A stretch of DNA of 64,000 nucleotides, from assembly GCF_001905345.1 (NCBI RefSeq), contig NZ_LFBV01000001.1, positions 631,321-695,320 of the forward strand, read 5' to 3'. Made by a program: the position numbers and the translations under genes. The notes below the pieces were generated by a model. It saw only the letters and a list, made by a program, of their open reading frames with translations. It had not been told where the DNA came from and searched no databases. Numbering within the stretch: position 1 is the stretch's first letter; each line of letters begins with the position of its first letter. The DNA is from Streptomyces uncialis (GTDB lineage: Bacteria; Actinomycetota; Actinomycetes; Streptomycetales; Streptomycetaceae). This document shows positions 35,088 through 53,579 of this stretch, in pieces.

Positions 35088-35432
35088 TCAGAGGGGCGGG
35101 TCGAAGGGGCTGGTGATGGCCCAGGTGCAGGGGCCGGGGTGGGTGTGGAAGAGGAGGCAGGGTGCGTCGTCGTGTTCGTTGGGGCAGGCGGTCGTCTCTT
35201 CGACGTGGACGGGTCCGCCGGTGGGGTTCCATCGGGCCCAGACCTGTACGTGGGGGTCCTCTTCGTGGAGGAGGTACGCGGCGCAGGCGGTCTCGGGTGT
35301 GTGGGTGGCGAGTTCGCAGCTGACCACTTCTTCCTGGAGGGGGTAGCGGTAGCGGTCGTAGCGTTCGGCGCGGGAGCGGGTCTCGTCGGTGATGACGAGG
35401 GGTTCACGGCATCGGGGGTAGGTGACCCTCAT
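35088..35432 (-). CDS. Small Cys/His protein of an XRE/TPR divergon (C-x-LF-x2-HPG-x-C family)
   Basis: This encodes 114 aa. The C-terminal half reads VWARWNPTGG, CPNEHDDAPCLLFHTHPGPC, then TW; the spacing of C, DD-x2-C-x-LF-x2-HPG-x-C matches the protein at 52608-53096, which also has CE-(I/L), A-A-x-LL and VW-x2-W at corresponding places. Conserved Cys and His suggest a metal-binding knuckle. It overlaps the upstream gene by four bases (ATGA). Function unknown. Confidence 0.72.
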   Translation of the reverse strand: MRVTYPRCREPLVITDETRSRAERYDRYRYPLQEEVVSCELATHTPETACAAYLLHEEDPHVQVWARWNPTGGPVHVEETTACPNEHDDAPCLLFHTHPGPCTWAITSPFDPPL

Positions 35433-35626
35433 CGGTCGGCCTCGTTCCGGCGGTCGCAGATCCCGCAGGGAAAGGGGCACTTCGGCGGAGTGGGTACGCC
35501 CGGGAGCCGGACCGCCCCGGTCACCGGGTCGACCGTGCCCCCGTACTCCGACCACCACCCCGCAGGGCCGATCCGGGGCGGAGCCCCCGCGAACCGGTCC
35601 GGTCGCTCCGGAGGCCCGGCGCTCAC
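35429..35626 (-). CDS. Small protein with C-terminal CPFPCGICDRR motif
   Basis: This encodes 65 aa from a GTG overlapping the stop of the preceding small gene (GTGA), and its own stop overlaps the next start. The body is Pro/Gly-rich with WWSEYGGTVDPVTGAVRLPG; the end has three cysteines in CPFPCGICDRRNE, a possible zinc or redox site. Its only strong support is the tight overlap on both sides. Family not recognised. Confidence 0.6.
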   Translation of the reverse strand: MSAGPPERPDRFAGAPPRIGPAGWWSEYGGTVDPVTGAVRLPGVPTPPKCPFPCGICDRRNEADR

Positions 35627-35820
35627 AGTTGGCCTCCGGGTTCACTCGGAGCGGGGACGTGTTCCGGATACTCACTGACTCGGTCCGGGCACTTCGGGTG
35701 GCCACAGGCGCACGACGGCCAGGTGAGTGCGTTTCGGGGAGCAGGGTCAGCGCCACCCGAACCGTTGTCCTGATTCATCGGCCAGTTCAGATCTGCCGAT
35801 CCGGCTGTTCCCGACCTCAT
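35623..35820 (-). CDS. Small protein with CACGHPKCPDR motif, first of the three-gene set
   Basis: This encodes 65 aa from ATG 35820, which follows GGAGG by seven bases. The middle has CACGHPKCPDRVSEYPEHV, three Cys and one His in zinc-finger-like spacing. It begins a three-gene minus-strand unit divergent from the XRE/TPR regulator at 36246. No known function. Confidence 0.6.
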   Translation of the reverse strand: MRSGTAGSADLNWPMNQDNGSGGADPAPRNALTWPSCACGHPKCPDRVSEYPEHVPAPSEPGGQL

Positions 35821-36245
35821 GCCCCAGCCTCCGCTGCCCGTGCGGGGCCACGCCCGCACGGCAAGGACTGAGAGCTGCGATCAGGGCGGCGATCGGCGGA
35901 GAGGCGGTACAGGAGCAGCTCGTGCGGGCGGCAGCACGCGGTGAGCGACACCTTCAGCGCTGTCTCGCGGGCGTGCGCTGTCTTGATCCGCCTCAGCAGG
36001 CCGTAGGGGACAGGACCGCTGACCGGATGGTGCTCGGTGAGGGGTTCCATAAGAGGTGATCCTCCAAGACGTCACCAGAGGAGATGAAGGCCCAAATCCC
36101 ACGGGGAGTCGGGAGGTTCGACCTGTGCGATGAAGTTTCGTCCGTGATGGATCGAGATGAAATGACCTGGTGTGGCACTTCCGTTGCACTTCAGTCCCCC
36201 CGCGATCACCGCACGTGATTGCATGAACTCGGAAGGGAGTGACGT
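35821..36245. other. Divergent control region between small-protein genes and XRE/TPR regulator
   Basis: These 425 bp are less GC-rich than the surroundings and hold no clear gene. A direct repeat GCACTTCCGTTGCACTTC lies about 60 bp before the regulator start (near 36174-36191) and could be a binding site. GGAAGGGAG precedes the regulator GTG. Confidence 0.45.
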
Positions 36246-37346
36246 GTGGCGACCGTGCACCGCTGGACAGGTTCGGAAGCCCGGGCATTACGACTCGCCC
36301 TGCGGATGAGCGTCCGCTGCTTCGCGGACCACCTGGGTGTCGCGATCCGCACGGTCTCGAAATGGGAGAAGCTTCTGGCCTCGACCGAGCCGAGGCCTGA
36401 CACCCAAGCGATCCTGGACACCGCGTTGGCCCGGAGTGGCGCAACTGTGCAGTCGCGGTTCGAGACATTCCTGTCAGCGGCAGAGCAGACGCCGGCAGCG
36501 AAGCGTTCCCGCGTAGGAGCCGCAGGCTCCCGGGCTTCGGAGTACGAGTCGTGGTCCGACGACCTGGAACGGAGCGCTGTCGCGTTGAGCCGACAGAATT
36601 TCGTCTTCGCCGAGCATCTGCTGGGCCGGTGGCTGAACCGGTTCACGAGGGAGGAGCTCGACGACGGGGGTCTGTATCTCTTCGCCCGGTCCACAGCCCT
36701 GCTCGGAGACCTACGACGTGATCGGGGGGCAGTGACAGGGCCGCTATCAGCCCAACACGCTTATACGAGAGCCCGATCAGCCTTCGACAAGCTCGACGTC
36801 CCCCGTCGTGTCGCCCAGCTCGACCTCTCCCTTGCCGTCGTCGCCGAAATGGCCGGTGACCTGGAGATCGCAGCTCGTCGCTATGAACGCCTCGCGGTCG
36901 ATGCCCGTCTCAGCCGCCGCGACCGGGCCCGGGCGAAACTGTGGGTAGGGACCGCGCTGAGCAAGGACGGCGAACACGACTATGCGGCACGGGTGATGAT
37001 GACGGCGACCCGCGATTTCGAAGAGCTGGCAGAGCCTGAGGATTGGACCGTCGCCCACCAGAAGCTCGCCCTCGCCCACCGAGGTGCTGGGAACCTTGTC
37101 CAGGCACTGCGCTTCATCGGCATCGCGCGCGACACCGGCATTGCTGAGTCCCCCCTGCAACGAGTGCGGCTGGACGCCGCCCATGGGCACATCCTGCTGT
37201 CCGACCCCGCGACCGTCGATGATGGGTTCCGGAGACTCGACCAGGCGGCCACGCTGGCCGCCGAATTCGGTCTGAGTCACCAGGTCCGCACTATCGGGAC
37301 CATCCGGACCATGACCGCGGGGGCGTCCGGCGCCCGGTCGCGGTGA
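36246..37346 (+). CDS. XRE-type regulator with TPR-like C-terminus, contains a TTA codon
   Basis: This encodes 366 aa from GTG 36246, with GGAAGGGAG four bases upstream. The HTH is at about 10-45 (LRLALRMSVRCFADHLGVAIRTVSKWEK). Residues 110-350 are helical repeats with the look of tetratricopeptides (ARRYERLAVDARLSRRDRAR, HQKLALAHRGAGNLVQALRF). Codon 15 is TTA (36288-36290), so translation should depend on the bldA tRNA and be tied to development. Last residues (about 10) are encoded by the 60-bp repeat. It is paired with three divergent small Cys/His genes and parallels the gene at 50892-52220. Confidence 0.85.
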   Translation: MATVHRWTGSEARALRLALRMSVRCFADHLGVAIRTVSKWEKLLASTEPRPDTQAILDTALARSGATVQSRFETFLSAAEQTPAAKRSRVGAAGSRASEYESWSDDLERSAVALSRQNFVFAEHLLGRWLNRFTREELDDGGLYLFARSTALLGDLRRDRGAVTGPLSAQHAYTRARSAFDKLDVPRRVAQLDLSLAVVAEMAGDLEIAARRYERLAVDARLSRRDRARAKLWVGTALSKDGEHDYAARVMMTATRDFEELAEPEDWTVAHQKLALAHRGAGNLVQALRFIGIARDTGIAESPLQRVRLDAAHGHILLSDPATVDDGFRRLDQAATLAAEFGLSHQVRTIGTIRTMTAGASGARSR

Positions 37347-37376
37347 GCAGGGAGACGCGAGTGACCACGCACCATC
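37317..37376 (+). repeat. 60-bp direct repeat, copy 2
   Basis: Matches 34026-34085 with two mismatches. Here it covers the 3' end of the XRE/TPR gene and the first codons of the ydcF-like gene, a natural gene junction, which suggests that this is the original context. Confidence 0.95.
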
Positions 37377-38032
37377 CGTACGGCATCACCGGTACCCGCT
37401 ACCGGCAGGCGAAGCTGATCTGGGACCACCACCGGATGCGCCACGAGGTGCGGCCCGTCGACGTGGCGATCGGACTGGGCAGCCATGACCTCGGTGTCGC
37501 GACCCATGCCGCCGGCCTGTACCGGGCCGGGCTGTTCCGGACCCTCGTGTTCACCGGCGGCAACAGCCCCACCACCCGCGCCCGCTTCCCGAGGGGCGAG
37601 GCCGTCCACTACCGCGAGCACGCCCTCGGGCTCGGGGTCCCCGACGAGGCGATCCTGGTCGAGCCGAACGCGGCCAACACCGGTGAGAACATCACCTTCT
37701 CCCGTGATCTCCTGGCCGCCCACGGCATCGCGCCGGCGTCGGTCCTGCTGGTGTCCAAGCCCTACATGGAACGCCGTTCGTACGCCACCGCCCGCAAGCT
37801 GTGGCCCGGGGCCGAAGTGCTCTGCGCCTCGGAACCACTGGAACTGGACGACTACCTCAAGTCCATCGGCGACGGGAAACTCGTCCTGGACATGCTCGTC
37901 GGAGACCTCCAGCGGGTGATCGAGTACCCCGCGCTCGGCTACGCCGTCGCCCAGGACGTCCCCGACGATGTCCGCACGGCCTACGAAGCCCTCATCGCGG
38001 ACGGGTACACCAGCCGACTCATCAAGCCCTGA
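37361..38032 (+). CDS. YdcF/SanA-like (DUF218) protein
   Basis: This encodes 223 aa from GTG 37361, with GGGAGA upstream. DUF218 features are [50 protein letters not shown] and [19 protein letters not shown]. Members have a Rossmann-like fold and may bind nucleotides; the reaction is not known. Unlike SanA it has no membrane anchor, so it should be cytoplasmic. It starts 14 bp after the XRE/TPR gene ends, within the direct repeat, so the two may be co-expressed. Confidence 0.88.
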
Positions 38033-38090
38033 GGCCACCGGCCAGAAAAAGCGGGCGACACCACCGATCCCGGCGCCTAGCGTGGGACGT

Positions 38091-39359
38091 ATGGGTCACG
38101 ATGTGGTGGACGTGCGGGCTGTTGCCTATGGGGAGCTCGCCGACTGGTTGCGGGCGTTGAACACCGGGTTCCTGCGGGAGCCGACGCCCACGGCGCACGA
38201 TGTGGACATCCGGCGCCGGCACACCGAGGCGGCCAGGACCACGGGGGCGTTCGACCGGGGGCGGTGCGTCGCCACGTACCGGTCCTTCGGGCAGGAACTG
38301 ACCGTGCCTGGGGGCGCGGTGGTCACGGCGAACGCGGTCAGCAATGTCACCGTCAGCCCCACCCACCGGCGGCGCGGGCTGCTGACGCGGATGATCGACG
38401 CGGATCTGCGGGCCGCCCGGGAGCGGGGCGACCTGGTCGCGACGCTGATCGCCGCCGAGTACCCGATCTACGGACGCTACGGCTTCGGCCCGGCCACCTC
38501 CGTCACGGAGTGGTCGATCGACGTGTCGCGCAGCGGGCTCGACCCGCGCTGGTCACGGCCGGAGCGGGACGGGGCGCGGATCGAGCTCGTCAATGCCGAG
38601 GACGTACGGGCGTGGGGTCCGGGGTTCTACGACCGGGTGCGCCGCGCGCAGCCGGGGGCCACCTCGCGGGACGCGGTGTGGTGGCAGATGGAGACGGGGG
38701 AGCTCCGGCTGGACGCGAGCCCTTGGAAGGAGGACTTCCAGGTGGCGTACCGGGCGCCGGACGGGCAGGTCACTGGGCTGCTCGCGTACGGCGTGGACGA
38801 CAAGTCGGGGGACGGCACGCAGCCGGAGAACACCGCCCGGGTGAAGCACCTGCTGGCGCTGGACCCGGACGCGGAGCGCGCGCTGTGGCACTACCTGTGC
38901 GCGGTCGACTGGATCACCACGGTCCGTACCGGGATGCGCGCCCCGGACGCCCTCGTGCCGCATCTGCTGCCCGATCCGCGCGCCGCGCGGGTGGTGAAGC
39001 ACGCGGACTGGCTGTGGGTGCGGCTGCTGGACGTCGCCGGTGCGCTGGAGGCGCGGACGTACGGGGGCGCGGGTTCGCTGGTACTGGACGTGGTGGACGA
39101 GCCCGGGGGCGCGGGCGGTGTCTCGGGCGGCCGGTTCCGGCTGGAGGCGTCACCGCAGGGCGCGGTGTGCGCGCGGACGGACGCTCCGGCGGATCTCACG
39201 CTGTCGCTTGGCGACCTGGGGTCGCTGTGGCTCGGGGACGGCTCGGTGGCACGGCTCGTGGCGCTCGGCCGGGTGGTGGAGGAACGGGAGGGCGCCGCCG
39301 CCGTCGCCGACGCCCTGTTCCGTACGCCGAGGCGCCCTTGGTGTCCGGACGTCTTCTGA
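38091..39359 (+). CDS. Eis-like GNAT acetyltransferase (two GNAT domains plus SCP2-like domain)
   Basis: This encodes 422 aa, the usual size for the Eis family. The N-terminal GNAT has [25 protein letters not shown] (acetyl-CoA loop RRRGL) and [13 protein letters not shown]; a second GNAT-like domain follows (about 175-300); the C-terminal part, with [32 protein letters not shown], is the sterol-carrier-like domain. The C-terminal residue is Phe, as in Eis, where the terminal carboxylate acts in catalysis. Eis enzymes acetylate aminoglycosides or lysines at several positions. TAGCGT at 38079-38084 may be the minus-10 of a near-leaderless mRNA. Confidence 0.92.
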
Positions 39360-39367
39360 ACCGGGGC

Positions 39368-39480
39368 CCCGCCTTTTCTGAGCCGGTACCTGTGCTGAGC
39401 CGGGGCCGCGACTTTTCTGAGCCGGTACCTGTGCTGAGCCGGTACCCGTGCTGAATCGGCGCCTCTTCTGAGCCGGTGCG
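39368..39480. repeat. Short tandem repeats after the Eis-like gene
   Basis: Imperfect copies of CTTTTCTGAGCCGGTACC and TGTGCTGAGCCGG alternate. They include partial inverted sequences (GGTACC is itself a palindrome). From 39481 to 39760 I see no gene or strong motif. Confidence 0.7.
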
Positions 39481-39760
39481 TGTGCTGCACCTGTGCGTGT
39501 GCCGCACCGGTCGTGTTCCGGGCGGACGTCCCGGCGCCCGGCGTACGGCGTACGGCTTACGGTCTTCCGCCTCGCTTTCGGGTGTCGGTGGTGGTCGGGT
39601 GTCCGTAGGTGCGTCCGGAGGCCGGTTGTCTCCCGGTGCCGCCCGGTCGCGGGTGGTGCGGCGGTGCGGCTTCGTCGGCGCACCGCGTCCGACGGGCCCC
39701 GGCTCCCCTCCGGAGAAGGACCCGTCGGAAGTCGGTGGGGTCACCGTGCGCGCGGGCCGG

Positions 39761-39949
39761 TCAGCGCGCGGGGGTGGTCATCAGCAGGGCCAGGGTCACT
39801 GCCCCGGCGGAGCTGCACATCGGGCTCCTGGCCTTGATCCCGACGGTGAGGAGCAGCAGTCCGGCGAGCCCCGCCGGACCGTACTTCCACTCGACGAACT
39901 GTTCCAGGCCGATGACGAACGCGGCGGTGAGGAGAGCGGCGGTGGGCAC
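39761..39949 (-). CDS. Small membrane protein divergent from GntR
   Basis: This encodes 62 aa from GTG 39949, with AAGGAGG six bases upstream, one of the best ribosome sites here. Two hydrophobic segments flank EWKYGP: TAALLTAAFVIGLEQFV and AGLAGLLLLTVGIKA, then CSSAGAVTLALLM. It looks like a tiny two- to three-helix membrane protein. It shares the operator-rich region 39950-40097 with the GntR gene, so its expression is likely controlled by that regulator. Confidence 0.75.
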   Translation of the reverse strand: MPTAALLTAAFVIGLEQFVEWKYGPAGLAGLLLLTVGIKARSPMCSSAGAVTLALLMTTPAR

Positions 39950-39983
39950 GGTGATCCTCCTTGCGGTGGGGAGGAGTGATACG

Positions 39984-40074
39984 CCAACTTGGTGATGTTG
40001 GCAACCAACTACACTTAAGTTGTCCCCACTTGGCTGCCTCGTATAAACAACTGTCGAACAACTGCCCATAGTTG
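39984..40074. promoter_or_regulatory. Three CAAC/GTTG inverted repeats in the divergent promoter region
   Basis: CCAAC-N8-GTTGG at 39984-40001, CAACT-N7-AGTTG at 40006-40022, and CAACT-N6-AGTTG at 40059-40074 lie between the small membrane protein and the GntR gene in unusually AT-rich DNA. They are likely binding sites of the GntR regulator. Confidence 0.65.
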
Positions 40075-40097
40075 GGTGCGGGTTGTACCGTTTGGTC

Positions 40098-41138
40098 GTG
40101 ACCCAGGAGAACGCCGCGGTGAACGGCCCCCCTTCCGACGGCCCCCCGTCCGACACCGAGCCCCTCGACGCCGAGCCCTCCGAAGCCGAGCCCCCCGGCG
40201 TCCAGCCCCTCGGCGTCCAGCCCTCCGAAGCCGACACCCCCGACACCCCCGCCCCCGTCCCGTCCGCCCCCGTCCCGCCCAACAGGCGCTCCGCGCAGGA
40301 CATCGCCGACGTCCTGCGCGAACGCATCCGCACCGGCGCGCTCAGGGCCGGTGACCGGCTGCCGACCCAGGCCGGGCTCGCGGCGGAGTTCGGGGTGGAG
40401 CGCGGCACCGTACGGCAGGCGCTCAAGGCGCTCCAGGGCGCCGGGCTGCTCAGCGATGTGAGCAAGGGCAGCCCGCCCCGGGTCGCCCCGCCCCGCGACC
40501 CGCTCGCGCACGGATCGCCCGCCGACCGGCCGCAGCCCACCATGGTCGGTCTCGCCCCCCGGCTGGCCAGGGCGTTCGCCGCGCCGCACGTCACCGTGGA
40601 CGCGGTGTGCCTCACCGCCGAGACCCTGATGCTCGCCGTCGGGGAACCGCTGCGGCAGATCCACGACGGCACCCTGAGGCCCGGTTCGGTCGAGGTGCGG
40701 GTACTGCTGCCCAGCCGCGAGATCCACCTCGCCTTCCCGGTCGCCGCCGACGAGGAGGACGACGACGGCCGGGTCCACGACCGCTGGCTGACCCAGCGCA
40801 ACGCGCAGGGGCAGGTGCTGCGCCACAACCTGGGGGCGCTGCGCTCCTCCCACGGCATCGAGGTGAAGGTCACCTTCCGCGCGCTGCCGTTCACCCCGCC
40901 GGTGAAGCTGTACCTGCTCAACGGCGACGAGGCGCTGATCGCGTACTACACGGTGACGCGCCGCCAGGAGGAGGTGGGCAGCGGTTCGATGGAGCTGTTC
41001 GACACGCTCGGGGCGGCCTCGCTGCTGTTCTCCTTCGACAAGCTCGCCGGGGCCCGGGACACCGCGTTCGTGGAGGAGTCGCAGAAGTGGTTCAACGCCC
41101 TCTGGGAAACCATCGCCACGGACCTGACACTCTCCTAG
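40098..41138 (+). CDS. GntR-family transcriptional regulator
   Basis: This encodes 346 aa from GTG 40098 (a TTG at 40083 is possible). Residues 1-65 are a Pro/Glu/Ser-rich extension with P-S-E/D repeats. The winged helix is at about 65-130: AQDIADVLRERIRTGALRAGDRLPTQAGLAAEFGVERGTVRQALKAL in pieces. The C-terminal 200 residues (VEVRVLLPSREIHLAFPVA, VKVTFRALPFTPPVKLYLLNG) are not a classic FadR or UTRA domain that I can name. It overlaps the HAD gene by one base, and the two are probably co-transcribed. Confidence 0.85.
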   Translation: MTQENAAVNGPPSDGPPSDTEPLDAEPSEAEPPGVQPLGVQPSEADTPDTPAPVPSAPVPPNRRSAQDIADVLRERIRTGALRAGDRLPTQAGLAAEFGVERGTVRQALKALQGAGLLSDVSKGSPPRVAPPRDPLAHGSPADRPQPTMVGLAPRLARAFAAPHVTVDAVCLTAETLMLAVGEPLRQIHDGTLRPGSVEVRVLLPSREIHLAFPVAADEEDDDGRVHDRWLTQRNAQGQVLRHNLGALRSSHGIEVKVTFRALPFTPPVKLYLLNGDEALIAYYTVTRRQEEVGSGSMELFDTLGAASLLFSFDKLAGARDTAFVEESQKWFNALWETIATDLTLS

Positions 41139-41893
41139 TGACCCAAGACACAGCACACACGGGACGGGTGGCCGACGAGACGGTGACACAGGGGACCGAG
41201 CAGCTTCGCGGGACGATCGGCCGGGCGCGGTACGTCCTCTTCGACTTCGACGGCCCCATCTGCCGTCTGTTCGCCGGGCACAAGGCCGAACGGGTGGCCG
41301 CGGACCTGGTCGACTGGCTCGCCGGGCAGGGCCTGCGCGGGCTGCTCAGCGCGACCGAGCGGGCCTCCCTGGACCCGCATGTGGTCCTGCGGGCCGTGGA
41401 CCGGGGGCACCCCGGCAGCGACCTCGTCGCGGAGCTGGAGGAACGCCTCACCCAGGAGGAGTCCCGGGCCGCCGCCTCGGCGCGGCCCACCGCCTGGGCC
41501 GACCCCCTGATCCGTACCTGGAGCGCGGTCGGCGTCCGGCTCGCCGTCACCACCAACAACTCCCCCCGGGTCGTCCGCGAGTACCTGGAGGGCCGGGGCC
41601 TCACCGACTGCTTCGCACCCCATGTGTACGGCCGTACGCGGGAACTGCGGCTGCTGAAGCCCGACCCCCACTGTCTGATCCGGGCGCTGAACGCGATGGG
41701 CGCGGCCCCGTCCGCCGCGCTGATGATCGGCGACACGCCGTCCGACCTGCTGGCCGCCCGGAAGGCGGGCGTCCCCTTCCTCGGCTACGCCCGCAACGAC
41801 CACAAGCGCCAGGTGCTGTCCGAGGCGGGCGCCGACCTGGTGGTCGACTCGCTGGAAGGCGTACTGCGGCTGGTGGGGACGACGAACCGATGA
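41138..41893 (+). CDS. HAD-superfamily hydrolase
   Basis: This encodes 251 aa from GTG 41138, which shares a base with the GntR stop. Motif I is VLFDFDGPICRLF (nucleophile Asp and second Asp), motif II TTNNSPRVV, the lysine motif LLKPDPHCLIRAL, and motif III MIGDTPSDLLAARKAG. It is a phosphoglycolate-phosphatase-like hydrolase with an inserted cap of about 100 residues; substrate unknown. Linked to GntR, so perhaps expressed in response to its ligand. Confidence 0.9.
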   Translation: MTQDTAHTGRVADETVTQGTEQLRGTIGRARYVLFDFDGPICRLFAGHKAERVAADLVDWLAGQGLRGLLSATERASLDPHVVLRAVDRGHPGSDLVAELEERLTQEESRAAASARPTAWADPLIRTWSAVGVRLAVTTNNSPRVVREYLEGRGLTDCFAPHVYGRTRELRLLKPDPHCLIRALNAMGAAPSAALMIGDTPSDLLAARKAGVPFLGYARNDHKRQVLSEAGADLVVDSLEGVLRLVGTTNR

Positions 41894-42146
41894 CGGACCC
41901 GTGACGCCCCGGTGAGGTTCCGGGGAGGTCCCGGACGGACCGGGGGCGGCGGGGGCGGCGGGGATGAGAACCTGCGGCCGCTCCCGGGCGTCCGCGCCGG
42001 GCGCACCTCGCGGTATGACGGTGCGCGCATGAGAGACGACCGGCGGGCGCCGCGCGGTGGTGGCGTACGGGCCCTGGGCCGCCCGTCGCGCCACTAGGGT
42101 GTGCCCATTCTTGTGACACGTGTGCGCGATCCTCCAGGAGTGGCCC

Positions 42147-43337: not shown

Positions 43338-43441
43338 CCCGCCGGGGCATGGGGGCGGGGCGGTCGGTGCCGCGTGACGCGTGCGCCGGGTCACGTCCCG
43401 GCGGGGCGTGACGGCCGTCCGCGCTGCGTACGCTCATCGGC

Positions 43442-44080
43442 ATGAGTGGTGAGATGGGGCTGAGGGAACGCAAGCGGCTGCGGATGTACCGGTCGGTGTC
43501 CGAGACCGCGATCGCGCTGTTCCTGGAGCGGGGCTTCGAGAAGGTGTCCGTCGCGGAGATCGCGGCGGCGGCCGACATCTCCAAGCCGACGCTGTTCCGG
43601 TACTTCCCCGCGAAGGAGGACCTGGTCCTGCACCGGTTCGCCGACCACGAGGACGAGGCCGCCCGGGTCGTCACGGCCGCCCGCGCCGACGGGACCGCCC
43701 CGCTGGCCGCGCTGCACCGGGACTTCCTGGACGGGCTCGCCCGCCACGACCCCGTGACCGGGCTGAACGACGATCCCGGGGTGCTCGCCTTCCACGACCT
43801 GCTGTACGGGACGCCGTCGCTGGTCGCGCGGCTGTACACGTACCTCGAACGCTCCGAGGAGCGGCTGGCGGGGGCGCTGGCCGCCCCCGGTCCGCCCGGC
43901 CTGCCGGACCGGACCGCCGCCGCGCAGATGGTCGCCGTCCGGCGGGTGCTCGCCCAGGAGAACCGGCGCCGGGTCGCCTCCGGCGAACGCGCCGACGCGG
44001 TGCACCCGGACGCCGTCACCCACGCCGACCGCGCCTTCGCCGAACTGCGGGACGGACTTCCCCGGTACGCGGGGGCCTGA
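43442..44080 (+). CDS. TetR-family regulator
   Basis: This encodes 212 aa. The N-terminal HTH reads ETAIALFLERGFEKVSVAEIAAAADISKPTLFRYFPAKEDLV (written here in pieces of the family pattern: SVAEIAAAADISKPTLFRYF). The C-terminal ligand domain has RDFLDGLARHDPVTGLNDDP, which does not point to a ligand. TACGCT at 43429-43434 is a plausible minus-10. The HelD paralogue begins 66 bp downstream on the same strand but has its own promoter. Confidence 0.92.
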   Translation: MSGEMGLRERKRLRMYRSVSETAIALFLERGFEKVSVAEIAAAADISKPTLFRYFPAKEDLVLHRFADHEDEAARVVTAARADGTAPLAALHRDFLDGLARHDPVTGLNDDPGVLAFHDLLYGTPSLVARLYTYLERSEERLAGALAAPGPPGLPDRTAAAQMVAVRRVLAQENRRRVASGERADAVHPDAVTHADRAFAELRDGLPRYAGA

Positions 44081-44088: not shown

Positions 44089-44110
44089 CACATCGCGACC
44101 CGGTAAAGAA

Positions 44111-46459: not shown

Positions 46460-46590
46460 CCGGTGACCGGTGGCGGGTGGCGGATGACCGGTGGCGGGCG
46501 ACCGTGTGGCGGGCGACCGTGTGGCGGTGCCCGGCACCCGCGCGGACGCGCATACGTCCGGACGGGCACCGGGCACCGGGCACCGGAAGG
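46458..46590. repeat. Short tandem repeats between HelD paralogue and lpdA
   Basis: Imperfect repeats of GACCGGTGGCGGG, GCGACCGTGTGGCG and GGGCACC lie between two convergent genes; the GTGCCCGG and CCGGGCAC arms could form a hairpin and act in termination. Confidence 0.55.
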
Positions 46591-46635
46591 CGACGGAGTG
46601 ACGACGGAATACGGAGTACGGAACGTGCGGCGGGC

Positions 46636-48048
46636 TCAGAAATTGATCATGTGACCCGCGAGGCCGTGCACCGCTTCCTTGACCGCCTCACCGAGCGTCG
46701 GGTGCGCGTGGACGTTCCGCGCGACCTCGTGCACCGTGAGGTCCCACTGCTGGGCCAGGGTCAGCTCGGGCAGCAGCTCCGTGACATCGGGTCCCACGAG
46801 GTGACCGCCCAGCAGCTCCCCGTACTTGGCGTCGCTGATGAGCTTCACGAAACCGACGGTGTCCCCGAGGCCGTGCGACTTCCCGTTCGCGGTGAACGGG
46901 AACTTCGCCACCTTCACGTCGTACCCCAGCTCCCGGGCCTGCGCCTCGGTGTAACCGAAGCTCGCGACCTGCGGCTGGCAGTACGTGGCACGCGGGATCA
47001 TCACATAGTCGAGCTCCATCGTCTCGGCGTCCGCGATGGTCTCGGCGGCGATGACGCCCATCGACTCGGCGGCGTGCGCCAGCATCAGCTTCGCGGTCAC
47101 GTCACCGATGGCGAAGATGTGCGGGACGGAGGTCCGGCAGCGCCCGTCCACATCGATCGCGCCGCGCTCGGTGACCCGTACCCCGGCGGCGTCGAGGCCG
47201 TACCCGGTGACGTTCGGCTGGAAGCCGATCGCCTGGAGCACCTTGTCGGCGGTGAGCACCTGCTGCGCGCCGTCCTTGCCGGTGACCGTGACCCGTACCT
47301 GCGGGCCCGACTCGTCGATGGAGTCGACCCGGGTCGAGGTCAGCACGTCGATACCCAGCTTGCGGTACTGACGGGCCAGTTCGGCGGAGACGTCCGCGTC
47401 CTCCAGCGGGGCGATCCGGTCCAGGAACTCGACGATCGTGACCTTCACGCCGTAGTTGTGCAGGACGTACGCGAACTCCACCCCGATCGCGCCGGCACCG
47501 GCGATCACGATGGACTGCGGTACGTCCTCCGCGAGGATCTGCTCCTCGTACGTGACGACGCGTTCGGTGCGACGGGTGCCGGGCAGCAGCTTCGGGGTGG
47601 CGCCCGTCGCGATGACACAGTTCTCGAAGGTGAGGGTGCGGGTGCCGCCGTCGGCGGTGGCGACCTGGAGGGTGTGCGGGTCGGTGAAGGTGCCGCGTCC
47701 GTCGATCTCGGTGATCGCGTTCTTCTTCATCAGATAGTGGACGCCCTTGACCCGGCCGTCCGCGACCCGCCGGCTGCGCCGGTACGCCTCCCCGTAGTCG
47801 AATGACACCGTGCCGTCGACCTTGATGCCGAAGGTCTTGGACTCATGGGTGAAGATGTGCGCGAGTTCGGCGTTGCGCAGCAGGGCCTTGGTGGGGATGC
47901 AGCCGACGTTCAGACAGACGCCGCCCCAGTACTTCTCCTCGACGACCGCGACCTTCTTGCCGAGCTGGGCGGCCCGGATGGCGGCGACGTACCCGCCCGG
48001 TCCCGCACCCAGGACGACGACATCGAAACGGTCTTCTTCCGTGGCCAT
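46636..48048 (-). CDS. lpdA: Dihydrolipoyl dehydrogenase (E3)
   Basis: This encodes 470 aa from ATG 48048, with AGGAG six bases upstream. FAD-binding [20 protein letters not shown], the redox disulfide Cys45/Cys50 in [15 protein letters not shown], the NAD-binding [26 protein letters not shown] and the C-terminal catalytic His449/Glu454 (HAHPTLGEA) are all present. It reoxidises dihydrolipoamide in pyruvate or 2-oxo acid dehydrogenase complexes with NAD. No E1 or E2 gene is nearby, so it works with partners encoded elsewhere. Confidence 0.96.
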
Positions 48049-48166
48049 GGAGTACTCCTGCCTGGTGATGGCTGTACTCCCCGATGGTCGCACCACAGCG
48101 GCGGTCCGCCGCCCGGGGCCACCCCTTCGGAGCCCCTCTTCCCGCCGACCGGGGAGGAAGGGCCGG

Positions 48167-48724
48167 TCAGCCGGTGATGTCGAGGGCCGTCCCGTACAGC
48201 CGGGAGACGCGGAGCCGGACCACCACCCGGCGGTCCGTCACCGCCTGGGCGAGGAAGGCGGCCTCGTCGGCGGGGTCGGGGAACCCGGGGGTCAACGCCA
48301 GCAGTTCCCGTCCGACGGTGTCCCCGGGTACGGCCGTCGGCTCCGACACCTCGGCAAGCCCCTCGGCCACCGCGAACGACCACACGTCCGGCCCCTGGAC
48401 GTGCAGTGACGCGTGCGGATCACGCCGCAGCTGCCGTGCCTTGAGCCGTTCGGCGGTGGTGGAGACCCGGACGGTCCGCTCAGCGGGGTCCCAGTCGTAC
48501 AGGACCGTCGACAGGTGCGGGTGTCCGGTGGACCGGACCGCGGCGAGGGTCCCGAACCGCCCGGCGGCCAGCAGCGCGGTCGCGTCGGCGTCGGTGAGCG
48601 GCCGGGGCGCGGGCCCGGCGGGGGAGGACCCGGCGGCGTCGCCGGGGCCATCGGCGGTTGCTCCGAGGTTCGTGGCTTCGATGGCGGCGGTGGGACCGGT
48701 GGCGGGGGTGGGCTCGGCGCTCAT
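48167..48724 (-). CDS. Pyridoxamine-5'-phosphate-oxidase-fold, F420/FMN-dependent oxidoreductase
   Basis: This encodes 185 aa. After a variable 40-residue Ala/Pro/Thr leader, the split-barrel fold reads [55 protein letters not shown] and [13 protein letters not shown] (given here as family blocks). This pattern fits PPOX-class enzymes that use F420 or FMN in actinobacteria; the substrate is unknown. GAGGAGACC precedes the ATG on the minus strand. An inverted repeat 137 bp upstream may control it. Confidence 0.87.
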
Positions 48725-48860
48725 GGTCGCTGGTCTCCTCGGTGCGTTCGGGGGACTGGTGACGGGTGACCGGATCAGGTGGCTGTTCGGGGATGCCGTG
48801 GTGACGTCGGCGCGTCCGGGGTGGACGGCGCCGGATACGACGACGAGATCGACCGTAGCA

Positions 48861-48882
48861 GATAGTTCCGTTGCAGACTATC
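48861..48882. promoter_or_regulatory. Inverted repeat GATAGT-N10-ACTATC, possible operator
   Basis: Arms at 48861-48866 and 48877-48882, in AT-rich DNA about 137 bp upstream of the oxidoreductase gene and after the end of the convergent-side phosphatase gene. The regulator is unknown. Confidence 0.5.
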
Positions 48883-48946
48883 GACTGCGGGCGCAGTCCT
48901 CGTTCCGGCTCCGCCCACCCGCCCCGCAGCGGCAACTGGGCCGTCG

Positions 48947-49588
48947 TCACCCGGCCTTGCCGGAGTCGAGATGGCGGATGTCCCCGAGGCTGACGAGCTG
49001 GCGGTTGTGGAAGAAGTCGTCCTCGCGCAGTGTGGTGACGCTGCCGGAGGGCGCCCGGAAGTTCGCGTAACCGGCCGACTCGATCGGCATCTTGATCCAT
49101 GCCGCCACGACGCACGTCAGGGAGCCGCCGTGCGTCACGACGATCTGGTGTTCGCAAGGGCTCCGCAGGATGTCGTCCATGGCCGCGTAGATACGCCGCG
49201 CCCACACCGCCTTGGTCTCCGCGCCCGGTACGCCCTCGTCGTGGTCCATCCGTTCCCCGACGGCCGGCGGAGGGACGAAGCGCTGGTCGAGCCACTCCTG
49301 CGGCCTTCCCTCCGCCTCGCCGTAGGACTTCTCCCGCAGCCTGCGATCCACGACCGGCCGCACACCGAACAACCCGGCCACCTCGTCCGCCGTCCGCAGG
49401 GTGCGCCGCAGATCCGAGGAGAACAGCTCCACGTCGGCGCCGTCCGGCACCTGGGCCCGCAGCGCCCGCGCGATGGAGACCGCCGCCCGGACCCCGCCGG
49501 CCGTCAGCTCCGAGTCATGCCACCCCCCGACGACCCGCTCGACATGGTGCGTCGCTTCCGGATGGGTGACGACGTAGAGAGTGCGCAT
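48947..49588 (-). CDS. Histidine-phosphatase-fold protein with altered RHG motif
   Basis: This encodes 213 aa from ATG 49588, 11 bases after AGGAGG. The fold is that of phosphoglycerate mutases: [13 protein letters not shown] at the N-terminus, [34 protein letters not shown], and [17 protein letters not shown] near the end. The usual RHG catalytic triplet is THP here, so the phosphate-binding arginine is lost at this place while the histidine and the second His (VVTHGG) remain. Activity is therefore uncertain. Confidence 0.87.
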
Positions 49589-49689
49589 GGGTGGGGTGTC
49601 CTCCTGTAGGGGCCGTCCTGCCTGGCCGGTCGCAGTCCGCAACTATGCGGACGAACTTTCAAATCCATCAAGCGAGTTCTTCGCCCCCC

Positions 49690-50240
49690 GCCCAGTACAG
49701 GAAGCCCAGCACAGCAACAAGTGCGCTGAGCACCGCGTACCCGGGGGGCGCGTGGAACTGCGCGAGCGACCAGGACAGACCCGCAGCCGGACGGGGACGG
49801 CGGGAGGCGCAACCTCAGGGGCGCGGGGAACTGCGCACCCCACGAGCGACGGCACAGGAACAAGTCCGCCGAGCACAGGCAACCCAGGGGCGCGGGGAAC
49901 TGCGCAAACCCACGAGCGACCCGCACGGGAACAAGTGCGCCGAGCACAGCGAACCCAGGGCCTGCGGCCGGACGGGGACGGCGGGAGGCGCAACCTCAGG
50001 GGCGCGTGGAACTGCGCACCCCACGAGCGACGGCACAGGAACAAGTCCGCCGAGCACAGCGAACCCAGGGCCCGCAGCCGGACGGGGACGGCGGGAGGCG
50101 CAACCTCAGGGGCGCGGGGAACTGCGCAAACCCACGAGCGACCCGCACGGGAACAAGTGCGCCCAGCACAGCGAACCCAGGGCCCGCAGGCACAGGCGAC
50201 CTGCACGGGGCCAGGCGACCCCGGCACTGAGAAGCCGCCC
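49690..50240. repeat. Intergenic repeat region 4, tandem GCGGGGAACTGCGC units
   Basis: Five copies of a GGGGCGCG(G/T)GGAACTGCGC motif (near 49743, 49818, 49887, 49999 and 50109) lie in longer units starting GCCGGACGGGGACGGCGGGA at about 49786, 49966 and 50077, with CCACGAGCGAC and AACAAGT blocks between. All motifs point the same way, and the long core seen in regions 1-3 is absent. No gene is present in this 659-bp gap. Confidence 0.85.
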
Positions 50241-50247
50241 GCAAGGG

Positions 50248-50736
50248 CTACCGCTTACGCTGCCGGGCACGCCGCACAGGCGCCGGCCCCTCGACGGGCA
50301 CCGCGAGCGGCCCGTCGACCAATCGCAGCAACGCCCGCGTAAGGACTTCGCGTTCCCCCTCGGGAAGCACACCCAGCACGTCACGGTGCACCCGGTCCGC
50401 GATCTCCTGACTGCGCCGGGCCATCGTCGCGCCCTCGTCGGTGACGGCGATGATCCGGGCCCGGCGGTCGGTCCGGGACGGCCGCCGTTCCGCGAGCCCG
50501 GCTTCCTCCAGGGCGTCGACCGTGACGACCATGGTCGTCTTGTCCATGTCGCCGATCTCGGCGAGCTGGATCTGGGTGCGCTCCTCCTCCAGGGCGTGGA
50601 CGAGCACACAGTGCATCCGCGCGGTGAGTCCGATCTCCGAGAGGGCGGCGGCCATCCGGGTCCGCAGGACGTGACTGGTGTGGTCGAGGAGGAAGGAGAG
50701 GTCGGGTTCGACGCGGGTGGGCGCGGTAGCGGTCAT
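50248..50736 (-). CDS. MarR-family regulator
   Basis: This encodes 162 aa from ATG 50736. The winged helix shows LTARMHCVLVHALEEERTQIQLAEIGDMDKTTMVVTVDALEEAGL and the wing RRPSRTDRRARIIAVTDEG (MarR pattern, given as blocks). The C-terminus ends in a basic RRARQRKR. It may regulate itself or distant genes; no obvious target operon is adjacent. Confidence 0.92.
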   Translation of the reverse strand: MTATAPTRVEPDLSFLLDHTSHVLRTRMAAALSEIGLTARMHCVLVHALEEERTQIQLAEIGDMDKTTMVVTVDALEEAGLAERRPSRTDRRARIIAVTDEGATMARRSQEIADRVHRDVLGVLPEGEREVLTRALLRLVDGPLAVPVEGPAPVRRARQRKR

Positions 50737-50891
50737 CCGTCCAGGGTAGCGGTGTTCGTCCCGTGACGGATTATCCGCGAGGCATCGCATTTCGTGTCGC
50801 AGCCCCGGGCCCCGGCCGGGCGTTCACGGTCACCACCGCCCACCGTCAGCCCCGAGCCCCGACCCGTTGCCGCCCGGGGCGCGGGAGCCTT

Positions 50892-52220
50892 TCACACTTG
50901 GCCTCTGGTGGCCTGCAAGGCGCGCTCCCGCACTTCACGCGCTGTCGGGTTGGCGCGATACGGCGAAAGTAGCTGCGCGATTGCGGCGACGTGACGGTCA
51001 ACCCTGCCCGAGTGGATTTTCGGATACTCGTCAAGAACATGCGCCCAGGTGTTGCAGGCCAGCTCCACGTGCCCAAGTTCAAGCTGCCGTTCGGCCAGAA
51101 TGGAACTGAAACGTAAAGCGGACCTACGGGTGTCCGTCGGTGTCCGCAAGCGAAAATGCAGCTTCAGCGAGTCGACGCTTCCGGCAACATCGCCGAGCGC
51201 GTACCGAACCTGTGACACGTGATAGGCCAAAACAGCCGGGTCGTAGTTTCCGAGATTCTGCGAGGTGCTCTCGGCCTGATCCATGGCCCGCTCCGCTTCC
51301 CGCAGGCTCCGCAGTGCGGCACTCCGGTCTCCCGCGACAGCAAGGGAATGCGCCTGCTGCCCGCCCATGAATGCCCGCATGCGCGGTCCCGATTCCGGCG
51401 CGGTGGCAGCAGCGGCGTCCGCGAGACGTACCGCCATGGCGCCGTGGCCGAGGTCCACCGCCTGAACCGAGACCCCCCGGAGCACACGGCAGTACGTCAG
51501 CCGGTCGCCGCTTCCTCCTGCCAACTCCAACCCTTTGACGTAGTAGCGCTGAGCGATCCCATGCATTCCTTCGTCCACGGCCATCCAGCCGGTCAGGAAG
51601 CAGAGGGAAGCGGCAGCGGACATCATGGCTTCGCGTGTCTCCACTGCCCCATCGGTAAGGAGGAGAGGTGCGACGGTTTGGGCTATGAATGTCGCGGCCA
51701 AGGGTCTTGTGTGTCGGCCACCGAACTCGTCGTACGTATCGGAAAGCTGAGCTGTCATGCGCTTGACCAGCTCAACATCGGAGATCCCCACCCGGCGTGC
51801 CGACCCGGTTTGAACCGCTTCCATTCTTCCCATGACGTCGGGCCAACCGGGGATATTGAGCGCAACGGAGAAGATGCCTGCCCCGATAAGGTTGCGTCGC
51901 TCCATGTCCTGTCTCCCTAGGTCAATCAACTCTTCCACGATGGAACAACTGGTTGAAGCGTGGGCAGGGGAAGGGAAGCCCGCTTCGGCGGGTGTGATCG
52001 GACGGCCTAACTTGCGCGAGAGCGCCTCACAGATCCTTGGGCGCACGTCTTCCATGGGGGTTACGCCCTTCCGCCAGTAGTGGACGGTGGACTCCCCGAA
52101 GGTCGTCGGCGTTCCGCGCTCGGTTCCGATCAGGTTGACGGCGCGGGCGAACTGCCCCTGAGTCCAACCGGCTTCCTTGTGCAATCGATTCAGGTGGATG
52201 TTGGGCTTCCGTGTCCCCAC
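50892..52220 (-). CDS. XRE-type regulator with TPR-like domain, contains a TTA codon (WhiJ-like cluster)
   Basis: This encodes 442 aa from GTG 52220, with GAGGAG four bases upstream. The HTH is at about 8-60 (HLNRLHKEAGWTQGQFARAV, FGESTVHYWRKGVTP). The long C-terminal region has tetratricopeptide character (MMSAAASLCFLTGWMAVDEG, ALRSLREAERAMDQAE, ELGHVELACNTWAHVL). Codon 71 is TTA (52008-52010), so it should be bldA-dependent. Divergent from four small genes, one with a DUF397 domain, an arrangement like S. coelicolor whiJ and its relatives, which act in development. Confidence 0.87.
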   Translation of the reverse strand: MGTRKPNIHLNRLHKEAGWTQGQFARAVNLIGTERGTPTTFGESTVHYWRKGVTPMEDVRPRICEALSRKLGRPITPAEAGFPSPAHASTSCSIVEELIDLGRQDMERRNLIGAGIFSVALNIPGWPDVMGRMEAVQTGSARRVGISDVELVKRMTAQLSDTYDEFGGRHTRPLAATFIAQTVAPLLLTDGAVETREAMMSAAASLCFLTGWMAVDEGMHGIAQRYYVKGLELAGGSGDRLTYCRVLRGVSVQAVDLGHGAMAVRLADAAAATAPESGPRMRAFMGGQQAHSLAVAGDRSAALRSLREAERAMDQAESTSQNLGNYDPAVLAYHVSQVRYALGDVAGSVDSLKLHFRLRTPTDTRRSALRFSSILAERQLELGHVELACNTWAHVLDEYPKIHSGRVDRHVAAIAQLLSPYRANPTAREVRERALQATRGQV

Positions 52221-52365
52221 AGGTCTCCTCGGGCGGGCTGAAGTCCCGTTCAAGCCTTTCAAGTTTTGCTGCCGTCTCCACGGTACCGCTGTACGTAGTC
52301 AAGGAGTTGCCTAGAGCGAGCGCAGAGCAGTGTGCGGACGCGAGCGAAGGGAAGAGACGGCAGCC

Positions 52366-52617
52366 ATGCCCGATGACTCTGAACGCCAGGTCAACCTGGG
52401 TGACCTGGCGTACGACGCCCGCAAGGGCCGCCTTGGGGTGGTCATGGATCTGGACACGGGAACAGGCGCGGGGCGCTGCTGCCTCCGTCCGCCCCGGGGC
52501 GGTGTCGAGTGGAGCGCGTCGTATGCGGACGTGCGTCCGGCCACCGTGGCGGACCAGCTCCGCCCCGCTCTCACCGAAGTGAATGCGCGTAGTCGAGGGG
52601 GTCAGGCATGGGGTTGA
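52366..52617 (+). CDS. Small protein of the WhiJ-like cluster
   Basis: This encodes 83 aa. It begins the plus-strand set facing the XRE/TPR gene, 145 bp away. The middle reads VNLGDLAYDARKGRLGVVMD and CCLRPPRGGVEWSASYADVRP; no known domain. GAAGGGAAGAGA lies upstream of the ATG. Its stop overlaps the start of the next gene by about 10 bp, which supports both. Confidence 0.75.
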   Translation: MPDDSERQVNLGDLAYDARKGRLGVVMDLDTGTGAGRCCLRPPRGGVEWSASYADVRPATVADQLRPALTEVNARSRGGQAWG

Positions 52618-53096
52618 CCGGGTTGCTCCGCCAAGGCTCGCGGCCACTGATATGCGGAGCCGTTCAGCTGCTGCCCCCGGCCCTGGTTCTCGACGCATTG
52701 ACCGCGGCTCTCGTTGACGACGATGAGATCGAAGTGACGACGGATCTCCACTGCGAGATTGAACAAGACCACGTGGGCCTGCACGCCGCAGCCGTCCGGC
52801 TGCTCAACAACTCCCCGCCCAGGACCGTATGGACCCAGTGGGTGGACTGGCGCGACCCGGAAGTCGTCGTCGTCCTGCCGGATTGCCCAGAAGTAAACGG
52901 CGGGCCACCCGGCAAGGACGACCGCTGCACCCTGTTCGCCAGCCACCCGGGAACATGCTCCTTCGACCTGGTCGACCCGGAGCACGAGGAGTTCCTGGCA
53001 GCCAATCCCGCGTACCGGCATTTGTTCGAACGGGAGCGGCCACAGGGAGCCGTCACGGACCTGCGCCCTCGCCCCGAGGACTCCCCGGCCGACTGA
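52608..53096 (+). CDS. Small Cys/His protein of the WhiJ-like cluster (C-x-LF-x2-HPG-x-C family)
   Basis: This encodes 162 aa. The middle contains CEIEQDHVGLHAAAVRLL, VWTQWVDW and a DCPEVNGGPPGKDDRCTLF-x2-HPGTCSF block that lines up with the 114-aa protein at 35088-35432, so the two are homologues in two separate regulator clusters. Cys/His spacing suggests metal binding. It overlaps the preceding gene. Function unknown. Confidence 0.78.
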   Translation: MGLTGLLRQGSRPLICGAVQLLPPALVLDALTAALVDDDEIEVTTDLHCEIEQDHVGLHAAAVRLLNNSPPRTVWTQWVDWRDPEVVVVLPDCPEVNGGPPGKDDRCTLFASHPGTCSFDLVDPEHEEFLAANPAYRHLFERERPQGAVTDLRPRPEDSPAD

Positions 53097-53177
53097 TCCC
53101 GCATACGGACAGCCCGCCGGGGTGGCAACACCGCTGCGGGGAACGACTCCCCGCATCACATGGAAAGGATCAGCATT

Positions 53178-53387
53178 GTGACCGCAGTTCCCGAATTCGA
53201 GTTCCGCACCGCAACCGCGTGCACCCTCCAGAACAGCGACCCACGCTGTGTCGAGGTGGCGACCAACGTCCCGGGCCGTGTGATCGTACGCAACTCCGTC
53301 ACCGGCGCCACGGTCGAGTTCACCGCCGGGGAATGGACCGCCTTCCTGGCGAGTGCGAAGCTGGGGGAGTTCGACCTCTCAGCCTAG
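53178..53387 (+). CDS. DUF397-domain protein
   Basis: This encodes 69 aa from GTG 53178, with AAAGGA upstream. The single DUF397 domain reads CVEVATNVPGRVIVRNSVTG and FTAGEWTAFLASAKLGEFDL. DUF397 proteins are small partners of XRE regulators in Streptomyces (the whiJ, bldB/abaA type loci) and modulate them by a mechanism that is only partly known. Here it lies in the divergent gene set of the XRE/TPR gene at 50892. Confidence 0.88.
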   Translation: MTAVPEFEFRTATACTLQNSDPRCVEVATNVPGRVIVRNSVTGATVEFTAGEWTAFLASAKLGEFDLSA

Positions 53388-53396
53388 GGAGTGCCC

Positions 53397-53579
53397 ATGC
53401 AGGAGTGCCCGCGCTGTGGCGGTACGGCCGAGGCCGACCCTGAACACCCCAACGCACGCTGGTGCCTGTCCTGCTGGCACGCATGGACGTATCCCCAGGA
53501 ACCGTCCTGCGGCGGATCGCTGCCACGGCTCGCGTCCGGACTCCGGGTACTGCGGGAGTCGCGACATCTGAACCGCTGA
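53397..53579 (+). CDS. Small zinc-ribbon-like protein
   Basis: This encodes 60 aa from ATG 53397, five bases after GGGAG, nine bases beyond the DUF397 stop. MQECPRCGGTAEADPEHPNA and RWCLSCWHAW provide two CxxC knuckles, the layout of a zinc ribbon; a basic C-terminus follows. Probably nucleic-acid or protein binding; function unknown. Confidence 0.72.
   Translation: MQECPRCGGTAEADPEHPNARWCLSCWHAWTYPQEPSCGGSLPRLASGLRVLRESRHLNR

Follow-up and report, generated by a model that had tools for sequence, protein, structure and literature searches.

The closest described relative of the system discussed here is the iosA-whiJ9-bldB9 locus of Streptomyces venezuelae. WhiJ9 is reported to bind direct repeats between whiJ9 and the divergent iosA, and without it iosA is not strongly activated when bldB is mutated. 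The same report states that BldB, a DUF397 protein, hetero-oligomerises with BldB9, and that overexpressing iosA together with abaA6 gives the phenotype of a bldB mutant (PMC10294661). We compare this system with two gene clusters, A and B, in a 64,000-nucleotide stretch of DNA (the window) from the 8.88-Mb genome of Streptomyces uncialis (G000, C1:631321-695320). Each cluster holds a gene for a small cysteine/histidine protein with an HPG motif, here called HPG. An earlier note on this DNA took the clusters for two copies of one module, in which an XRE regulator with TPR-like repeats faces a set of small cysteine/histidine proteins. Our best reading is different. WhiJ-DUF397 pairs and NsdA-family proteins appear to be input modules that can take each other's place in front of one common cargo of small effectors, predicted to bind zinc, and the whole would work like whiJ9-bldB9-iosA. 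For the window itself we lean, if only slightly, towards a joint explanation: cluster B would be a self-contained switch of regulator and cargo, with HPG as a zinc effector, and cluster A an orphan piece of related cargo. A wider proposal we offer only tentatively is that WhiJ-DUF397 pairs and NsdA-family proteins are interchangeable input cassettes of a single switch design with an unrecognised, exchangeable output set, made up of small zinc proteins (HPG, C67) and their partners (P5, c18), several diverged copies per genome forming a tunable network for developmental or chemical decisions.

The likeness to the S. venezuelae locus has several sides. As reported, that locus pairs a helix-turn-helix (HTH) regulator with a DUF397 (BldB) partner, as do the loci in which WhiJ-DUF397 accompanies P5 and HPG, and the regulator is divergent from a gene whose small cytoplasmic product has no known fold (PMC10294661). 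IosA is given there as 15 kDa with a pI of 10.3, and we set HPG, P5, c18 and C67 against it by description only. The broader class of whiJ/abaA/bldB clusters resembles our loci, in the accounts published (PMC4255298, PMC10294661), in having many diverged copies per genome, a DUF397 partner, some TTA codons and a variable third gene. That third gene encodes an AbaA protein of the HATPase type (antisigma-like) or IosA; here its place is taken by P5, HPG and c18-C67. These lack a Pfam family above cut-off, and the abaA locus was compared with them by description.

Cluster B differs from iosA-whiJ9-bldB9 in that its regulator is of the NsdA family and not a WhiJ. It shares a family with NsdA and NsdB (NF050130, NF050135), falls far under the cut-offs for those equivalogs, and differs from both in being linked to a divergent cargo operon. 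One NsdA protein, NsdAsr, is reported to bind DNA and to lower antibiotic yield (PMC12243394). The Scr1-Scr2 pair of S. coelicolor belongs to the same regulator and DUF397 families as the WhiJ-type HPG loci, and the extracts of its reports considered here treat it as a pair on its own, without P5 or HPG (PMC6262351, PMC10364602). A transcriptome study with both whiJ and nsdA lists these genes separately, in the part considered (PMC3897704). Neither the cargo nor an exchange between WhiJ and NsdA is described among the literature matches listed, which were judged by title and abstract opening and covered few subscription papers. WhiJ-BldB loci and NsdA have each been reported to affect development or antibiotic output in Streptomyces, and apart from AbaA and IosA little is known of what such loci produce. 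A cargo shared by the two regulator types, together with a site of apparent replacement, would allow a direct test of whether the two families do the same job, and four small-protein families can now be named as candidate outputs.

For both clusters we translated the open reading frames (ORFs) and compared ten of the proteins with Pfam and NCBIfam. Gene calling by simple codon usage was discarded because it overlooked low-GC regulator genes. Cluster B and its immediate neighbours are as follows.

50892..52220, minus strand: NsdA-family regulator, 442 residues from GTG 52220 (NF053720, 397.8 bits); an upstream TTG at 52262 is a less likely start.
52221..52365, no strand: divergent intergenic region with candidate operator and promoters; TTCAAGCCTTTCAA direct repeat at 52249-52262.
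52366..52617, plus strand: P5, first cargo gene, about 83 residues (GTG 52330 possible); overlaps the HPG start.
52608..53096, plus strand: HPG-B, 162 residues; predicted ligands C16 C49 H55 H59 / C93 C107 H113 C117.
53160..53387, plus strand: divergent DUF397 (BldB-like) protein, 75 residues (PF04149, 36.8 bits, cut-off 24).
53391..53579, plus strand: small CxxC protein resembling a zinc ribbon, 62 residues; weak Pfam and NCBIfam matches only.
53632..53877, minus strand: short GntR-type winged-helix protein, 81 residues (PF00392, 48.7 bits).
54047..54397, plus strand: c18 cargo protein, about 116 residues; seven own-genome copies, rare elsewhere.
54394..54597, plus strand: C67, a 67-residue Cys/His protein; overlaps the c18 stop and accompanies c18 in L263-L266, L271, L272 and L032.

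The regulator is a member of the NsdA family by its score against NF053720 (cut-off 75), whose profile it covers from 3 to 432 of 432. It is an orthologue of neither NsdA nor NsdB, reaching 65.1 of 830 and 67.6 of 700 bits under the two equivalog cut-offs. The TPR-like repeats that the earlier note saw in it agree with the NCBIfam name of its family; Pfam yields a weak HTH and no TPR. No match to a WhiJ-type regulator (PF19054/DUF5753) was found anywhere in the window. The regulator gene is low in GC (62.6% at 51001-52000, with most nearby kilobases above 70%) and has two in-frame TTA codons, at codons 71 and 369. The DUF397 protein proposed for this cluster is confirmed, its gene adjoining HPG on the downstream side and not the regulator. 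The proposed zinc ribbon is so far only a likeness, and a tblastn search of the other 73 sequences with this 62-residue protein found nothing at E <= 0.05. P5 and the c18-C67 pair (54047-54597) had been overlooked; P5 is detected at 1.8e-14 by a profile built without the window copy, and the pair recurs in sister loci. No AbaA-like HATPase was matched among the six cluster B proteins, c18 and C67, which were the proteins scanned for it.

The association of HPG with the two regulator types carries much of the argument. We assembled 73 regions which with the window make 75 HPG loci, from matches to a 16-member profile (A1) down to E of about 9e-19, with adjacent matches merged and weaker genus-wide matches excluded. 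Neighbours were counted within 3 kb of HPG unless stated, using regulator profiles trained on Streptomyces. A WhiJ-like regulator occurs at 42 of the 75 loci, an NsdA-like regulator at 25 and at least one of them at 65; DUF397 is found at 39 and P5 at 36. A strict cut-off of E <= 1e-20 leaves 41 WhiJ, 22 NsdA and 63 loci with either. In 54 of the 75 the closest regulator is upstream of HPG and encoded on the other strand. When HPGs more than about 62% identical are dropped, a regulator is kept at 33 of 41 loci and the divergent layout at 25 of 41. Chance would give roughly 5%, judging from own-genome matches over the cut-off (39 DUF5753, 22 NsdA), and since the loci are non-independent even after identity filtering no tail probability should be taken at face value. 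Outside the genus, a WhiJ- or NsdA-like regulator is present at 21 of 27 loci from the family; 30 genomes of other genera had a match, and these loci represent 26 of them. Within Streptomycetaceae, then, HPG and these regulators are strongly associated, and beyond the family the association is absent or undetected. The view of these loci as modular, poorly described and related to WhiJ therefore suits the HPG family as a whole; it suits cluster B loosely, with an NsdA-family regulator in WhiJ's place, and does not apply to cluster A, where conservation ties the regulator to a different partner. The stress role that the earlier note also suggested finds no support in these results.

The second line of evidence is one apparent replacement of regulators. 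L087 has an NsdA regulator (NF053720, 423.6 bits) and L077 a WhiJ-DUF397 pair (PF19054, PF04149). One flank matches over 2.46 kb at 93% and the opposite flank over 0.69 kb at 91%; identity across the 1.5-kb P5-HPG-HPG cargo is 90%. The regulator halves cannot be aligned except for 83 bp that include the last 22 bp of duf397, and the junction on the cargo side lies near codon 24 of P5. By tblastn at E <= 1e-4 L087 contains no WhiJ or DUF397. Four others, L076, L078, L080 and L125, carry the L087 flank with its 486-residue gene (9847-11304) and yet have WhiJ and DUF397. Because L077 shares both flanks and cargo, and because the four flank-sharing genomes have WhiJ-DUF397, we believe it most likely that the L087 lineage exchanged the pair for NsdA and retained the cargo. 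The HPG tree also places L087 in an otherwise WhiJ-linked group, with a Shimodaira-Hasegawa-like approximate likelihood ratio (SH-aLRT) of 98. Over its 127 domains this tree needs 15 changes of WhiJ/NsdA neighbour, and 7 or more gains or losses of the NsdA label follow from its starred branches; these figures come from a short search on few columns, with many open forks, long branches and three doubtful labels. In a second pair L029 (WhiJ) and L030 (NsdA, 388.2 bits) are sisters at SH-aLRT 99 and have no shared flanks in the stretches compared. Directly after the NsdA gene of L087 there is a coding ORF of up to 366 residues (2437-3534, minus strand), which may have arrived with NsdA.

HPG is a real family. 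The 114-residue HPG-A and 162-residue HPG-B were said in the earlier note to be related, and they are: they align at E = 8e-07 in a single pairwise BLASTP comparison, and one profile recovers both, each being among its 16 building rows. Single-protein searches, which include the own genome each time, find the 162-residue type in 11 of 100 genomes and the 114-residue type in 2 of 100. Profile A1 has matches in at least 63 of 295 same-genus genomes, a lower bound since 14 candidates per genome were scored among the rows listed, and a profile search finds 96 HPG ORFs across 74 sequences. A wider profile (A2, 34 members) has matches in 37 of 150 family-drawn and 22 of 296 class-drawn genomes, both draws containing same-genus genomes. 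Only one of the 34 members matched Pfam, at E 0.044, and none matched NCBIfam at E <= 0.1; HPG is thus a family without a model in either. Two PHROGs families were hit by 2 and 1 of the 34 (best E 0.0026), and the best match of the profile to PDB sequences was E 0.31.

HPG has eight near-invariant Cys/His positions. We aligned 127 different domains that span most of the model, 89 from the genus set and 38 from the wider set, with short matches and duplicates dropped. The first predicted site consists of Cys (126/126), Cys (126/127), an early His and then His or Cys (127/127); the second of Cys (126/127), Cys (127/127), His (126/127) and His or Cys (127/127). Seven of the eight positions are thus Cys or His in all or all but one of the domains. 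There are also two conserved Trp (127/127 and 122/127), and HPG-A and HPG-B both have the eight Cys/His and the two Trp. The tested spacing is found in 119 of the 127. Of the eight that deviate, L027 and L113 are each short of a single ligand, and the rest resemble spacing variants. We read the positions as two metal sites because Cys and His interchange at two of them, and HPG is then most likely a small structural-zinc protein acting through protein contacts. In other families of the class (L236-L243) there is a sister HPG group with the same two Cys/His sites, beside which WhiJ and NsdA neighbours were not detected by the Streptomyces-trained profiles. HPG may have existed as a domain before it came to be used in switch loci.

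The rest of the S. uncialis genome repeats the pattern with P5 and c18-C67. Six of the seven P5 copies face WhiJ-DUF397 or NsdA: the partner is NsdA at cluster B, WhiJ-DUF397 at L263, L264, L265, L267 and L269, and neither at L268. There are seven copies of c18, two at only 41-42% identity, and all but one (C15:269585) lay within the regions fetched. C67-c18-P5 faces WhiJ-DUF397 at L263 and L264. At L265 DUF397-WhiJ faces P5, followed by GntR, c18-C67 and an NsdA gene. The c18-C67 pair faces GntR alone at L266 and lies beside WhiJ at L272. A second genome, G010, twice brings together WhiJ, P5, HPG, GntR and c18-C67 (L271, L032). A GntR gene like that of cluster B adjoins c18, HPG or P5 in L265, L266, L268, L271, L032 and L028. 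BLAST clustering also hinted at c18 in L088, L089 and L116; this was not reproduced with phmmer.

Cluster A is a different matter. Its genes are these.

35088..35432, minus strand: HPG-A, 114 residues; predicted ligands C8 C39 H44 C50 / C83 C92 H98 C102; 66% identical to its paralogue at C2:488756.
35429..35626, minus strand: CPFPCGIC protein, 65 residues; overlaps HPG-A; 58% identity (E 2e-17) to a paralogous own-genome locus.
35623..35859, minus strand: CACGHPKC protein, up to 78 residues; 44% identity (E 3e-10) to the paralogous locus.
36246..37346, plus strand: XRE-A, a regulator outside the HPG system and partner of YdcF, judged by the neighbourhoods of full-length homologues.
37343..38032, plus strand: YdcF-like (DUF218) protein, outside the HPG system; overlaps the XRE-A stop (PF02698, 64.8 bits).

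XRE-A has five other full-length homologues, in four of the 41 genomes searched. A YdcF gene lies directly downstream of all five, and none has HPG or P5 beside it within flanks of about 1.5 kb. On these grounds we judge XRE-A to be the partner of YdcF, its proximity to HPG being incidental as far as conservation shows. Pfam finds in it an HTH alone, without the TPR-like repeats claimed earlier. The regulators of the two clusters are unrelated by BLASTP (best E = 3). With the XRE-A-YdcF pairing, this leads us to reject two copies of one module, and an XRE that belongs with the small genes is not confirmed. The XRE-YdcF pair (36246-38032) is itself conserved, with overlapping ends, and XRE-A has one TTA codon.

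The small genes of cluster A do have a home. The order CACGHPKC, CPFPCGIC, HPG-A is repeated in the same genome at C2:487-489 kb (L026), where the trio faces a WhiJ-type protein (DUF5753 with an HTH) with DUF397 matches on either side. No PF19054 or PF04149 match lies within about 17 kb of HPG-A. Judged from sequence, the small genes of cluster A are an orphan copy of that trio. The CACGHPKC ORF was suspected of being spurious from its GC, which is flat across codon positions and counts against a real gene. This suspicion is largely withdrawn: the reading frames are conserved between the trios and changes are in excess at the third codon position (21/18/36 for CACGHPKC, 14/12/20 for CPFPCGIC and 24/22/50 for HPG-A). 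Both of the other small proteins that the earlier note listed here are therefore probably real.

The mechanism we propose for the switch loci is modelled on the S. venezuelae system. The regulator gene is divergent from a cargo operon of P5, one or two HPG genes and, in some loci, c18-C67. In cluster B the regulator belongs to the NsdA family; at other loci it is a WhiJ/DUF5753 protein partnered by DUF397. It would bind the shared intergenic region, turn the cargo on and limit its own transcription. Action on the divergent cargo promoter is expected because the layout matches whiJ9-iosA. A DUF397 protein, or the TPR-like domain of NsdA itself, would restrain the regulator until a signal arrives. 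Since NsdA seems able to stand in for the WhiJ-DUF397 pair, we infer that the TPR-like domain may do the job of DUF397. HPG would then influence development or antibiotic production, either as an effector or by partnering the regulator.

The intergenic region of cluster B offers a candidate operator or promoter. A direct repeat, YTYAA-N4-YTYAA, lies about 30-45 bp from the NsdA start in cluster B, in L087 (near 4921) and in L091 (near 1619-1633). The block GGTACCGCT...CCTAGAG at 52282-52316 resembles L091 and, more loosely, L087, and a GGTACCGC...TTNCCTRGAG block is common to all three. TTNCCTRG occurs in 6 of 24 NsdA upstream regions against 0.30 expected, and in 0 of 45 WhiJ regions; both motifs were picked after inspecting the same sequences, so this is a lead only. 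A three-way DNA alignment failed to align the motifs cleanly, and the L091 stretch used for it misses the motif.

TTA codons fit developmental control through the rare leucine tRNA. They are present in 42 of 69 regulators as against 21 of 402 other long ORFs: 25 of 45 WhiJ-like and 17 of 24 NsdA-like genes have them, as do 1 of 56 DUF397, 8 of 38 P5 and 14 of 96 HPG genes. Some whiJ-type clusters are reported to contain TTA codons, and most whiJ-like genes of S. coelicolor to have none (PMC4255298).

A number of observations weigh against an exchangeable switch with a zinc effector. The TTA counts were made on ORFs read from the first start codon, and the excess in regulators may be partly an effect of low GC. 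The profile and neighbourhood search proposed in the earlier note finds the HPG proteins by one another, and it also finds homologues that lack both regulator types: 10 of the 75 genus loci (cluster A included), 6 of the 27 family loci and, among class-level hits beyond the family, 12 of 13 loci (19 such hits were found and 13 of them covered; one has a regulator). In the S. uncialis genome three of the five HPG genes have a regulator within 3 kb, and those without are cluster A and C14:402969. The NsdA profile cross-hits other HTH proteins and WhiJ proteins score weakly with it, L114 is not NsdA by NCBIfam, and the 25 NsdA-like loci are an upper figure, with 22 at the strict cut-off and 18 by BLAST clustering. 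Cluster B alone among the 75 loci combines NsdA, DUF397 and P5, and c18 is found in just 2 of 41 genomes, its own and G010. As for zinc, the first His of site 1 varies in its spacing. AlphaFold models of two HPG proteins are poor, with a predicted local distance difference test (pLDDT) of 63 and 61 from alignments of 33 of the 50 listed HPG sequences plus both window proteins, and Foldseek, run on one model, found no PDB fold at E <= 0.001. It is therefore conservation that carries the zinc sites.

The strongest of the other explanations makes the cargo a sensor. HPG, P5 and c18-C67 would be co-regulators: each would contact the regulator of its own locus and signal the state of zinc or redox to it, and the targets would lie elsewhere in the genome. 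Cargo and regulator do stay adjacent and mostly divergent, and Cys/His sites could sense metal or thiol stress. The junction near codon 24 means that the N-terminal part of P5 changed with the regulator in the replacement, as expected if P5 touches it. The HPG genes, however, stayed when an unrelated regulator came in, which is harder to square with a dedicated contact. We regard this explanation as unlikely, though it deserves to be kept in mind.

Less likely still, in our opinion, is a toxin-antitoxin or conflict module, with HPG, P5 or DUF397 as toxin and the HTH regulator as antitoxin and autorepressor. XRE-DUF397 pairs have been predicted to be type II systems of this kind (PMC2701414), and conflict-type loci are reported to contain DUF397 genes (PMC7159879). 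The loci are also patchy among the genomes of the genus, and in cluster B the gene for the regulator has a low GC content. On the other hand, the pair that was tested, Scr1/Scr2, reportedly did not behave as a toxin-antitoxin system (PMC6262351), none of the 34 HPG members matches the PADLOC anti-phage defence models at E <= 0.01, and HPG is retained without a linked regulator in cluster A and in others.

The neighbours of some HPG genes raise a metabolic reading, in which these regulators control a small enzyme system (a NUDIX hydrolase, a radical SAM maturase and perhaps peptide natural products) and HPG serves that system as an accessory domain. An ORF with a NUDIX box lies within 3 kb at 11 of the 75 loci as against 4 of 75 at 3-6 kb, an HPG domain is fused to a NUDIX domain at L028 (10226-11344, minus strand), and a radical SAM gene is present as well in one NsdA-linked HPG subgroup. 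Some graspetide clusters are reported to have DUF397-DUF5753 pairs nearby (PMC13097080), and DUF5753 regulators are also reported in PMC8939145. This reading we consider very improbable, since at most of the 75 loci a NUDIX box is missing from the 3 kb around HPG, 8 of the 11 with one (L082, L086, L092, L098, L102, L103, L104, L107) are non-independent members of one NsdA-linked tree group, and there is none within 6 kb of HPG-B and only a 138-residue ORF 3.2 kb from cluster A.

The enzyme-linked loci have features of their own. Between the HPG and NUDIX parts of the L028 fusion we read a short HTH-like stretch. At L034, L082, L093, L098, L103, L104 and L113 HPG lies mostly beside NsdA and is followed by the radical SAM gene, identified by Pfam at L104 and by BLAST grouping at the other six. 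Some of these loci have a small protein weakly like the CxxCxGxG region of DnaJ, and a NUDIX gene beyond NsdA. They are possibly a peptide-modification system.

Mobile elements give a few further glimpses of the families. A phage origin was considered for the LPPP-type HPG subgroup, which gave 21 pattern matches in viral contigs, none of them confirmed by tblastn. Plasmid records held no match for HPG-B, LPPP-type HPG or c18, one for HPG-A and five for P5. On a plasmid of Streptomyces xanthophaeus (L273, 4815-7410) an HPG-like stretch at 5001-5207 lies inside a 396-residue protein, flanked by a TPR protein and an NsdA-family regulator (218.8 bits). On a plasmid of Streptomyces goshikiensis (L275, 2512-4461) P5 is divergent from an HTH regulator, a NUDIX gene comes after the regulator, and integrase genes flank the group on either side.

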